The notes beneath the pieces were generated by a model. The model was not told the DNA's origin. It searched no databases and saw only the letters and a list, made by a program, of their open reading frames with translations. A program made the position numbers and the translations under genes. Positions 1 through 7,586 of a stretch of DNA of 25,947 nt are shown here, one piece after another. Origin of the DNA: a virus. The stretch is taken from positions 1 to 25,947 of the IMG/VR virus record IMGVR_UViG_3300046167_000224, one strand, 5' to 3'. Within the stretch, counting starts at the first letter, position 1. Each line of letters begins with the position of its first letter.

Positions 1-45
1 ACTACAATAAAAAGTAGCACACGCGCAGACCCCCCGTCCCTTTGT

Positions 46-85
46 ACATGAGCCACCCTCATGTTAACTTGAGAAAAACTCATGT
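46..85. promoter_or_regulatory. ACATGAG/CTCATGT repeat cluster, possible activator site
   Basis: ACATGAG (46-52) and CTCATGT (58-64) form a perfect 7-bp inverted repeat with a 5-nt spacer, and CTCATGT occurs again at 79-85. The cluster lies just upstream of the first sigma54-type promoter, where an enhancer-binding activator could sit. The repeats are seen in the sequence; the function is inferred. Confidence 0.4.
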
Positions 86-89
86 AGAC

Positions 90-106
90 TTGGCACGTCT
101 TTTGCA
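90..106 (+). promoter_or_regulatory. Sigma54-type -24/-12 promoter, copy 1
   Basis: TGGCAC (91-96), five bases, then TTGCA (102-106) matches the sigma54 consensus, with the invariant GG and GC dinucleotides 10 bp apart. Transcription would begin near 117, toward the gene at 371. The match is exact, but no sigma54 activator gene is visible in the window, so activity is unproven. Confidence 0.6.
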
Positions 107-136
107 TGCTCAAGTTTGCTCAAGGCCATGCAATAT

Positions 137-179
137 GTATGCCAAAGTGTGAGGATCGCTAAAGTACCCTTTGGCATAC
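137..179. repeat. 11-bp perfect inverted repeat between the two sigma54-type promoters
   Basis: GTATGCCAAAG (137-147) and CTTTGGCATAC (169-179) are perfect reverse complements with a 21-nt spacer. The right arm ends 2 bp before the -24 element of the second promoter. It could be a binding site for a regulator, or a hairpin in transcripts starting at the first promoter. There is no T-tract, so a terminator is unlikely. Confidence 0.5.
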
Positions 180-180
180 C

Positions 181-197
181 TTGGCACACATCTTGCA
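181..197 (+). promoter_or_regulatory. Sigma54-type -24/-12 promoter, copy 2
   Basis: TGGCAC (182-187), five bases, then TTGCA (193-197) repeats the layout of the copy at 90-106, again with GG-N10-GC. The shared bases reach one further on each side (TTGGCAC-N5-TTGCATG), so the two look like a duplicated promoter. The predicted start is near 208, giving a leader of about 160 nt to the gene at 371. Confidence 0.6.
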
Positions 198-246
198 TGG
201 TCATCTCGACTGTTTCCTTTATATACATACGCACACAAAAATAATC

Positions 247-370: not shown

Positions 371-916
371 ATGACACTTAACAAAGCAATTGCAAACGAG
401 ATCATGACCGCCGAGCAAGCCAAGGCATCACGCGAACTGGTACGCAAGATGATCGCCAACGAAACGAAAGCAAAAATCCAAATGGCTGAATTGTTCGAGA
501 TATTCAAGCCAGCGATTCACGGGCATGATGAAGCGCAGTTCAAGGCATTCCAGACGGCTTTCGTTAATGCGGCAGGATTCAAGAATGCTAGTGAGATGAG
601 CAAGCAAGACGGATGCACACGGATTGGCGTCACATTGTCCGAGTTTAAAAAGTATTGTAAGGATTTTGCTGGTGCTCCTGAGTGCTACGTCGACATGGTG
701 GCTGAGATTAAAGCTGCGCGTGAAGCGACCAAAGCCGAGAAAAAGCCAAGCAAGGCAAGCGCTGGTGGCGGTGAAGGCGAAGAGGAATCGACCGATAGTG
801 GTGCGCCCAGCGGCCTAGTGAATCCGGTGCTGATCGAGTTTTTTAACAAGGTATCGGCGGAATCGCCCGAGGTACAAGCGTATTACGCCAAGCAATTGCT
901 GGCGGCGATTAAGTAG
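371..916 (+). CDS. Hypothetical early protein, 181 aa
   Basis: Not recognised. The ATG at 371 follows an AGGGA ribosome site. Residues 1-120 are charged and probably helical, with Lys/Glu-rich stretches near the start. Residues 125-148 are a low-complexity linker rich in Lys, Gly, Glu and Ser, and a short helical tail of about 33 residues follows. No membrane segment, signal peptide or cysteine motif is seen. It is the first gene after the complex control region, so it is probably expressed immediately after infection and may act on the host or on early control. It is followed at once by a hairpin that may end or attenuate the transcript. Codon usage and flanking signals support a real gene. 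Confidence 0.75.
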   Translation: MTLNKAIANEIMTAEQAKASRELVRKMIANETKAKIQMAELFEIFKPAIHGHDEAQFKAFQTAFVNAAGFKNASEMSKQDGCTRIGVTLSEFKKYCKDFAGAPECYVDMVAEIKAAREATKAEKKPSKASAGGGEGEEESTDSGAPSGLVNPVLIEFFNKVSAESPEVQAYYAKQLLAAIK

Positions 917-2335: not shown

Positions 2336-2499
2336 TGGACAGCGAAGAACTACAGCTAGTAGACTACGACGAGTGCGACCACGAATGGGAACACCACCCA
2401 GCAGAATGGGAGCACCTGTCAGGCAGAGCAACAGTGATGCAGTATGCAGAATCATACTACTGTCACAAGTGCGACACATGGGAGAGTGAGCTTGATTGA
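2335..2499 (+). CDS. Small acidic zinc-ribbon-like protein, 54 aa
   Basis: The start overlaps the previous stop as TAATG. The protein is very acidic and has possible metal ligands: Cys14 and His16 near the start, then CHKC at 43-46. These could bind one zinc ion. The final part (YYCHKCDTWE) resembles the second half of a zinc ribbon, as in small phage proteins that touch RNA polymerase or nucleic acid, but the family is not recognised. A sigma70-type promoter begins at its stop codon. Confidence 0.6.
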   Translation: MDSEELQLVDYDECDHEWEHHPAEWEHLSGRATVMQYAESYYCHKCDTWESELD

Positions 2500-2524
2500 C
2501 TCACTCAAAATTCACAAGTATAAT
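2496..2524 (+). promoter_or_regulatory. Sigma70-type promoter
   Basis: TTGACT (2496-2501), a 17-bp spacer, then TATAAT (2519-2524): 5 of 6 and 6 of 6 matches to consensus with the ideal spacing. The start would be near 2531, ahead of the ATG at 2556. The -35 overlaps the stop of the preceding gene. Confidence 0.75.
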
Positions 2525-3508: not shown

Positions 3509-3684
3509 TGCGCTGTAAGGCATGTAACACACTGCTTGAGGACTATGAGTCAGTCAGGAAAGACAAGCAGACAGGTGAGTTCCTCGACCTATGTGACGAG
3601 TGTTTACACACCAGCAATCAAACACTATTCGACATGACAGAGGAGGAAGATGGTACTATTTTGTACGATGCTGTTGACAATTGA
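3508..3684 (+). CDS. Small zinc-finger protein, 58 aa
   Basis: Two CxxC pairs (CKAC at 3-6 and CDEC at 29-32) with a 22-residue gap make a single-zinc ribbon. The rest is acidic. The ATG at 3508 overlaps the previous stop and follows AGGAGAGG. I recognise this type as a common small phage protein of unknown function; zinc ribbons of this size often contact nucleic acid or RNA polymerase. The sigma70 promoter for the replication operon starts inside its last codons. Confidence 0.75.
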   Translation: MRCKACNTLLEDYESVRKDKQTGEFLDLCDECLHTSNQTLFDMTEEEDGTILYDAVDN

Positions 3685-3702
3685 GCAACGCATCTGTATA
3701 AT
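3674..3702 (+). promoter_or_regulatory. Full-consensus sigma70 promoter of the replication operon
   Basis: TTGACA (3674-3679), 17 bp, then TATAAT (3697-3702): all twelve hexamer bases and the spacing are consensus. The transcript would start near 3709. It overlaps the end of the zinc-finger gene and drives the SSB, primase, polymerase and later genes. Host RNA polymerase would be enough to use it. Confidence 0.85.
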
Positions 3703-3705
3703 ACT

Positions 3706-3764
3706 ATAGTGTTAGACAACGAAAATAAACTTACAATTGTAAATTTATAGCTGTCTAGCACTAT
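3706..3764 (+). promoter_or_regulatory. Structured leader: 13-bp stem around palindrome copy 6
   Basis: ATAGTGTTAGACA (3706-3718) pairs with TGTCTAGCACTAT (3752-3764), perfect apart from one G-U wobble. The 33-nt loop holds the 12-bp palindrome, so the leader could fold as a two-tier hairpin. The left arm includes the predicted start of transcription, and the ribosome site (AGGAG at 3781-3785) lies 16 nt after the right arm. The structure may protect the mRNA 5' end or control access to the operator. Confidence 0.65.
3731..3742. promoter_or_regulatory. 12-bp palindromic operator, copy 6 of 6
   Basis: TTACAATTGTAA lies in the loop of the leader hairpin, about 22 nt after the predicted start of transcription and 50 nt before the SSB gene. 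A protein here could block a strong promoter by roadblock. Confidence 0.65.
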
Positions 3765-5884: not shown

Positions 5885-7586
5885 TCTATTCCTAGACATA
5901 GAGACCAATGGTCTTGATCCTGACACCATCTGGGTAGCAGTGACTATGCAGGACGGTGAAGCTCAGGCTCACTATGACAAGGACAGTCTCTCACAGGCGC
6001 TACAGGGTGACTTCCCAGTGGTAGGTCACAACCTCATAGGCTTTGACTTGCCGGTGCTAGAGAAGCTCTGGGGTATCACAGTGGACAAGCGTAGGGTGGT
6101 GGATACCTTGGTACTATCAAGGCTTGCTAACCCACAGCGTGAGGGTGGACACAAGCTGGCTAACTTCGGAGGCAAGGGAGACCATGATGATTGGTCATGC
6201 CTATCCAATGAGATGGTTGAGTATTGTATCCAAGATGTCCGTGTGACGGCTCAGGCATACCACAAGCTCAAGCTAGAGCTACGTAGGTTTAGCCAAGAGT
6301 CTATTGACCTTGAGCATGAGGTGCAGTGGATTGTGCAGGAGCAGATAGCTAACGGCTGGCTCTTGGACATGAGACATTCCGCTGACTTACTGGCTACCCT
6401 GAAGGAACGTAAGCTGGCTGTAGAGGATGAAGTGCATGAGGTGTTCAAACCTAAGTGGGTTGACGTTAGACAGGTGGTGCCCAAGACCAAGAAGGATGGC
6501 AGTCTATCTAAGGTAGGACTCACTGACGATGAGTACCAGCGTGTGATGGACACTGGTGACAGGTCTCCCTTCATGCGTAAGATGCTCAAGCCATTTAACC
6601 TTGGGTCTCGTCAGCAGATAGGCGAGTACCTAGTAGACTTCGGATGGAAACCTAAGAAGCTGACACCTACAGGTCAGCCAATGGTAGATGAGTCAGTCCT
6701 GTCTACAGTGAAGGACATACCTCAAGCAGCTATGATCGCTGAGTATCTGATGTTACAGAAGCGTGTTGCTCAAGTGCAGTCATGGGTAGATGAAGCTAAC
6801 CCAGACACAGACAGAGTGCATGGATATGTAAACACTAATGGTGCTGTCACTGGTAGGATGACACACTCTAAACCTAACCTAGCCCAAGTTCCGGCAGGCT
6901 ACTCACCGTATGGCAAGGAATGCCGACAGTGTTGGATTGCAAGGGATGGATACAAACTTGTAGGGTTTGACGCTAGTGGACTAGAGCTACGTATGTTGGC
7001 TCACTACATGGACGATGAGGAGTACACTAATGAAGTCATTGGAGGAGACATACACACTGCTAACCAACAGCTTGCAGGACTTGAATCAAGAGATCAGGCT
7101 AAAACTTTCATCTACGCACTGCTGTACGGAGCAGGAGATGCGAAACTTGGTACGGTGGCAGGAGGAGGCGCAAGTGCTGGTAAGCTGCTTAGAGAACGAT
7201 TTATGTCTAATCTCCCAGCATATGCAGATCTTAAAGGACGAGTTGCAAAAGAGGCGACCCAAGGCTGTATCAATGGGTTAGACGGTAGGAAACTATACAT
7301 ACGATCAGAACACGCAGCACTGAATACATTACTACAGAGTGCCGGTGCAATCGTTATGAAAAAAGCCTTGTGTTTATTACAGGAGTATGCTATACTATGG
7401 AACTTAGATTATTACTTTGTTGGAAATATCCATGATGAAGTACAAGCAGAGGTTAGAAGATCCCAAGCAGACAAGTATGGAAGACTTGCAGTCTCATGTT
7501 TGGAAGCAGCAGGAATTGAACTTGGGCTTAAGTGTAGGCTCACAGGAGAGTACCAAGTCGGAGAAAGCTGGGCGGATACTCACTGA
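5874..7586 (+). CDS. Family A DNA polymerase with 3'-5' exonuclease, 570 aa
   Basis: Copies the phage genome. The N-terminal exonuclease has FLDIETNG (Asp8, Glu10), HNLIGFD and YCIQD motifs. The polymerase has motif A FDASGLELR (Asp366), motif B RDQAKTFIYALLYGAG (Lys410) and motif C NIHDE (His520, Asp521, Glu522). The closest architecture is T7 gp5, though it is shorter (T7 704 aa). The phenylalanine/tyrosine position in motif B, which governs dideoxynucleotide sensitivity, is Tyr (FIY). The ATG at 5874 follows GGAGGAT and overlaps the primase stop; an ATG at 5841 is less likely. The catalytic set is complete and no break is seen. Confidence 0.96.
   Translation: MHSDLFLDIETNGLDPDTIWVAVTMQDGEAQAHYDKDSLSQALQGDFPVVGHNLIGFDLPVLEKLWGITVDKRRVVDTLVLSRLANPQREGGHKLANFGGKGDHDDWSCLSNEMVEYCIQDVRVTAQAYHKLKLELRRFSQESIDLEHEVQWIVQEQIANGWLLDMRHSADLLATLKERKLAVEDEVHEVFKPKWVDVRQVVPKTKKDGSLSKVGLTDDEYQRVMDTGDRSPFMRKMLKPFNLGSRQQIGEYLVDFGWKPKKLTPTGQPMVDESVLSTVKDIPQAAMIAEYLMLQKRVAQVQSWVDEANPDTDRVHGYVNTNGAVTGRMTHSKPNLAQVPAGYSPYGKECRQCWIARDGYKLVGFDASGLELRMLAHYMDDEEYTNEVIGGDIHTANQQLAGLESRDQAKTFIYALLYGAGDAKLGTVAGGGASAGKLLRERFMSNLPAYADLKGRVAKEATQGCINGLDGRKLYIRSEHAALNTLLQSAGAIVMKKALCLLQEYAILWNLDYYFVGNIHDEVQAEVRRSQADKYGRLAVSCLEAAGIELGLKCRLTGEYQVGESWADTH

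Follow-up and report, generated by a model that had tools for sequence, protein, structure and literature searches.

A conserved cluster of sigma54-type promoter elements at the head of a phage early region, and what it may do

The usual view is that the early genes of a phage are transcribed either by the host's sigma70 polymerase or by a polymerase belonging to the phage. The stretch of DNA considered here, referred to throughout as the window, is the whole of IMG/VR record IMGVR_UViG_3300046167_000224, a linear fragment of 25,947 bases, and its first two hundred bases raise the question of whether a phage could begin its gene programme through sigma54. The initial annotation had drawn attention to two exact copies of TGGCAC-N5-TTGCA on the plus strand, 91 bp apart and sharing a longer TTGGCAC-N5-TTGCATG frame, and had proposed that they are sigma54 promoters which drive the early region. 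Both copies are present as described (Table 1), but their number is three rather than two, as an inverted element lying between them had been overlooked.

The sigma54 identity of these elements is, on sequence grounds, near certain. In all three, GG-N10-GC stands within an exact TGGCAY-N5-TTGCW context, and the three are the sole exact matches to the motif in the 25,947 bases of the record, where random sequences of the same length hold a mean of 0.07 such matches. Two exact matches within 120 bp of each other were seen in none of 400 random runs, and the earlier remark that chance is an unlikely source of the pair is thereby upheld. When the window was scored with a matrix made from 50 intergenic E. 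coli sigma54 motifs from ChIP-seq (PMC4591121), the two copies first noticed led the window together with their inverted companion, the three scoring 20.05, 19.70 and 19.20 bits and the site ranked fourth 12.5. Maxima from random sequence on the same matrix are 14.2 +/- 1.7, with 19.2 attained in none of the runs. For genuine E. coli sites the leave-one-out median is 14.6 and the 90th percentile 17.2, such that the window's elements (19.2-20.0) are comparable in score to experimentally bound sites and, indeed, at or above most of those in E. coli (PMC4591121). They have in common with bacterial sigma54 (RpoN) promoters, for example those of E. coli glnA, pspA and hypA/hycA (PMC4591121), the same boxes, the GG-N10-GC spacing and a purine at -20.

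Table 1. Features of the control region and early arm. Positions are those of the window, except where a relative's locus is named; predicted +1 positions were set 19 bp from the motif centre, following PMC4591121.
Feature	Position	Strand	Sequence	Remarks
C-rich tract	32-42		CCCCCCGTCCC	
Indel-free conserved control block	41..199	.		contains all three elements; 0 gapped of 159 positions, 15 genomes
Two adjoining inverted repeats	45..86		ACATGAG..CTCATGT and AACTTGAG..CTCATGTA	mostly kept in alignment
Sigma54 element 1	90..106	+	TTGGCACG-N4-TTGCA; TGGCAC-N5-TTGCA exact at 91-106	predicted +1 ~117, toward early arm; boxes invariant in 15/15 genomes
Sigma54 element 3, inverted	145..129	-	TTGGCAT-N5-TTGCATG; TGGCAT-N5-TTGCA exact at 144-129	predicted +1 ~118, toward packaging arm; overlaps element 1 start; boxes invariant in 15/15 genomes
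Degenerate partial element	171..180	+	TTTGGCATAC	adjoins element 2; conservation incomplete
Sigma54 element 2	181..197	+	TTGGCAC-N5-TTGCA; exact at 182-197	predicted +1 ~208
First rightward gene	371..916	+		181-aa all-helical protein, function not assigned
Sigma70-type promoter (11/12)	2496..2524	+	TTGACT-17-TATAAT	within early arm; conserved in relatives
Perfect sigma70-type promoter (12/12)	3674..3702	+	TTGACA-17-TATAAT	within early arm; conserved in relatives
Leftward sigma70 promoter loci	L006:5507, L008:5467, L004:1589, L005:2782	-		upstream of putative small terminase
Palindrome, six copies	246-259, 962-975, 1348-1361, 2036-2049, 2733-2746, 3730-3743		TTTACAATTGTAAA	0-1 mismatch

Conservation among related phages, which had been put forward as a check on the pair, extends to the trio. 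Fourteen close relatives (84-93% identity), found with the first early protein as the query and not with the motif, all keep the three elements, arranged + - + at unchanging distances, and have the trio in no other part of their records. In the alignment of the 15 genomes only one of the 33 box columns is variable, as against 8 of the 15 spacer columns (Fisher p = 1.3e-4), and elsewhere in the alignment the count is 28 of 111. In other words, the boxes are conserved and the spacers between them are not. The sole box variant, found in one of the 15 genomes, is a C-to-T change at -21 of element 2, where T is still a sigma54 letter. Just downstream of the indel-free block that contains the elements, 25 of 161 columns are gapped. 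The inverted repeats inside this block could be the site of an activator (enhancer), a role which we infer, and comparison with known activator sites established no match.

Rightward genes run from 371 to ~13,600 and include those for a helicase-like protein, a DNA polymerase and endonuclease I together with ribonucleotide reductase-like genes; the remainder of the record consists of leftward genes. What lies to the left of the window can be seen in two relatives (L006 and L008), where leftward genes encode a 129-aa protein, an M15-type peptidase, the large terminase and the portal, the first of these being called a putative small terminase from its position only. The control region in which the elements stand is therefore divergent, with the packaging arm leading leftward from it and the replication (early) arm rightward. 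Elements 1 and 2 point at the open reading frame at 371-916, in keeping with an early bias found across the family, and the predicted leaders to position 371, of 254 and 163 nt, exceed most E. coli sigma54 leaders. The product of this gene has no match in Pfam or PHROG, and its all-helical fold is a structure prediction in which one of five models was good.

The early arm contains conserved sigma70-type promoters of its own, and a perfect TTGACA-17-TATAAT promoter reads leftward into the putative small-terminase gene and is kept in those loci of the window's own family that cover it. Both arms are thus already served by conserved sigma70 promoters, which counts against reading the sigma54 elements as early promoters. 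The original proposal, that the elements are promoters of the early region, accordingly holds in part: sequence and spacing, conservation and an early-facing orientation across the family speak for it, but the elements are not the sole early promoters, given those at 2496 and 3674. For the first early genes (to ~2335) no sigma70 promoter scoring at least 11/12 was found, such that the sigma54 elements would be the best promoters that these genes have. In possessing conserved TTGACA-17-TATAAT promoters the phage resembles the sigma70-type systems of lambda, T5 and early T7, in which likewise the host polymerase acts at the head of the early arm; it is unlike them in that the sigma54 holoenzyme can open DNA only with the help of an activator driven by ATP.

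Two further sequence features were recorded. The palindrome TTTACAATTGTAAA, expected 0.16 times with two mismatches allowed, is confined to the early arm, where its six copies lie mostly just upstream of gene starts, and it resembles an operator for a repressor or a signal of middle genes. The C-rich tract, which separates the sigma54 cluster from the packaging arm, is present at syntenic places in most clades, also in longer forms, and could be a packaging or origin signal.

The direction in which the sites face was followed in two samples. Among the loci found with the motif, 63 have a small-terminase homologue, and in each the cluster lies upstream of it; grouped at 80% identity, their proteins form 11 clusters, and most sites are directed toward the early arm in the one representative examined from each (11/11; 49 vs 6 sites, p = 0.001), with sites of the same direction mostly 25-28 bp apart. 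The second sample was drawn without use of the motif, its members being relatives chosen by their large-terminase protein (the closest 80 of >556), of which 48 loci have at least 2.4 kb upstream. Strict sites are present in 21 of these 48, with 62 facing early and 17 late and a late majority in none, and absent in 27, six of which have one weaker early-facing site. The trait is therefore frequent but patchy among terminase relatives, and the impression given by the motif-chosen loci, that the clusters are universal in the wider family, was dropped. Several clades have early-facing sites only. In one relative (L128) the packaging genes are near-identical (TerL 96%) and the control sequence is wholly different, evidently through modular exchange, and it too has three early-facing sites (7071-7213).

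Beyond the family, clusters of 2-11 sites are found in >200 IMG/VR loci, and the statement of the initial annotation that sigma54 promoters are rare in phages is in this respect wrong. A scan of viral contigs for face-to-face pairs returned 79 loci with an N5 spacer and none with N6, while tandem and back-to-back pairs with N5 were each found in at least 120 loci. For tandem pairs an N6 spacer, taken as the control, returned 12 loci, with spacings all multiples of three as in coding repeats; with 12 loci set against at least 120, an artefact of tandem duplication was rejected. Over the 233 loci listed, the N5 spacer accounts for 1114 sites and spacers of 2-4 and 6-8 for 3-10. In 180 of the 233 at least three sites lie within 300 bp, the maximum being 11, although only the sites beyond two are unselected, since the loci were chosen for holding two. 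The positions which the search left free also match sigma54 sites, with a purine at -20 in 95% and a pyrimidine (T/C) at -27 in 85%. The same face-to-face scan of bacterial and archaeal genomes (257 billion bases) gave 11 loci, mostly simple pairs. Divergent sigma54 pairs do exist in bacteria, as at hycA/hypA (PMC4591121); what is unlike bacterial sigma54 promoters is the setting in a phage control region, where 2-11 sites, in many cases on both strands, follow one another at steps of 20-28 bp, and with no cognate activator gene of the phage found in the fragment records. At such steps, seen in several clades, neighbouring sites could not form open complexes at the same time, an unexpected arrangement for ordinary promoters.

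It is, in our estimation, probable, if well short of assured, that the early arm is headed by clustered promoters which the host's sigma54 holoenzyme reads, alongside the conserved sigma70 promoters, and it is likely that the elements drive early transcription. The three would be -24/-12 sites to which the host's sigma54 RNA polymerase holoenzyme binds, with elements 1 and 2 most likely starting transcription of the first early genes, from 371 to ~2335, and element 3 presumably reading toward the packaging arm. As elements 1 and 3 are face to face with overlapping starts, it may be expected that only one of the pair is occupied at a time. The opening of sigma54 promoters requires an enhancer-binding ATPase, in the absence of which the holoenzyme forms stable inactive closed complexes (PMC7057263). 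At the window, the holoenzyme would wait in such a complex until an ATPase of the host opens the DNA, a host activator being invoked since none was found encoded in the phage records searched. A link of this step to the nitrogen or stress state of the host, as first suggested, is speculation. The searches behind this picture returned the RpoN DNA-binding domain (PF04552) in none of 49 cluster-bearing records, with the positive controls detected, and the activator domain (PF00158) only in two unrelated large records with weak scores, which gives no convincing phage activator; both absences are provisional because the records are fragments. The single-subunit RNA polymerase (PF00940) was seen in none of 13 records, likewise fragments, in a search whose control genomes gave no signal either.

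Since the sigma54 holoenzyme binds DNA without an activator, the elements could act as a decoy, holding the host's holoenzyme in inactive closed complexes as the phage DNA multiplies, such that the genes which the host controls through sigma54 (for stress, envelope and motility) would be shut off. The closeness of the window's sites to consensus, nearer than most E. coli sites, suits this idea, as do the clades in which as many as 11 sites, divided between the two strands, occupy <300 bp, the stability of the inactive closed complexes (PMC7057263) and the failure to find a phage activator in the fragmentary records searched. A decoy needs no direction, yet the sample drawn by terminase protein leans 62 to 17 toward the early arm, several clades have no late-facing sites and the place of the sites ahead of the early arm does not vary; a decoy and nothing more is hence unlikely. 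A double role is conceivable, if doubtful, for the dense two-strand clusters of many unrelated phages, which might be both early promoter and a copy-number-driven trap, such that phage development would first be coupled to the sigma54 stress responses of the host and these would then be silenced.

It is rather improbable that the cluster is instead a replication origin or some other nucleoprotein site, at which the sigma54 holoenzyme opens or marks the DNA or blocks passing polymerases and does not serve gene expression. In the L030/L069, L119, L131 and L151 clades, DnaA boxes (TTATMCACA) are concentrated beside the cluster (12 in 26 kb vs 2 in 192 kb; 11 in 6 kb vs 0 in 60 kb), and an origin function there is conceivable; most clades also have a C-rich tract upstream of the sites, and the spacing is rigid within the window's own family. 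The control region of the window's own clade, however, contains no such DnaA boxes, and from clade to clade the number and arrangement of sites are free to change while the direction toward the early arm is kept. Very unlikely is an operator for another protein, of phage or host, which shares the sigma54 consensus by happenstance. Neither a sigma54 activator site nor an rpoN-bearing host is proved, and many small early genes are without known function, any of which leaves space for such a protein, but the spacing, the box letters and the free positions all fit sigma54 sites, and the same motif is found again in phages with no shared proteins. An RNA hairpin formed by pairing of the inverted elements 3 and 2 in a transcript, or a chance repeat, has next to no probability: the arms at 126-151 and 175-200 are complementary at 85%, but the N5 spacers of the two copies show no co-variation (3.13 of 5 matches vs 3.27 shuffled), which argues against a hairpin, no Rfam family matches, and chance is excluded by the matrix scores and the random-sequence counts.

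If the promoter reading is true, there is a class of phages whose first decision passes through a polymerase that depends on an activator, and the physiology of the host could gate infection directly. The cluster would also be a sequence signature that predicts RpoN-bearing hosts, and might offer phages a route to disarm sigma54-controlled responses, for example the phage-shock system. While sigma54 promoters are known, a cluster of them heading the early region of a phage appears to be new; no report of such clusters in phages was found in the open-licence literature, a scope which does not take in preprints. The cluster, together with its counterparts in many other uncultured marine phages, suggests that a host transcription system previously unlinked to phages within the searchable literature may be tied to the start of a phage gene programme.

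As to hosts and cultured relatives, a TerL search of 369 Gammaproteobacteria and 385 Alphaproteobacteria gave one relative at 48% identity, on a 7.3 kb contig (L245, G176:C2) of a gammaproteobacterial genome which has rpoN; the region upstream of this relative contains a sigma70-type promoter, and sigma54 sites are absent there and from the phage contig. The closest cultured phages by DNA polymerase are Pelagibacter HTVC115P, HTVC104P and HTVC103P (47-48% identity), and by portal the HMO-2011-type phages (20-25%), such that these Pelagibacter/Roseobacter podoviruses are distant relatives. None of the 18 cultured or fosmid relatives examined has the site cluster: HMO-2011 and HTVC033P have single stray matches, and HTVC104P/115P and CRP-1/3/345 have none. 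A resistant Vibrio strain selected by the distantly related Vibrio phage CHOED had a deletion in rpoN (PMC6596326), but this case was set aside as support, as the phage has no sigma54 site and the motility and virulence defects of the mutant are explained, in the published account, by loss of the flagellum (PMC6596326).

Larger records gave a separate observation. Of the 20 strict sigma54 sites in one whole genome, a Flavobacteriales bin, 14 are on a single contig of 157,908 bp (L109, VFKM01000012.1), and a 147 kb record (L144) also has many; sigma54 promoters may be in use throughout large phages or plasmids.
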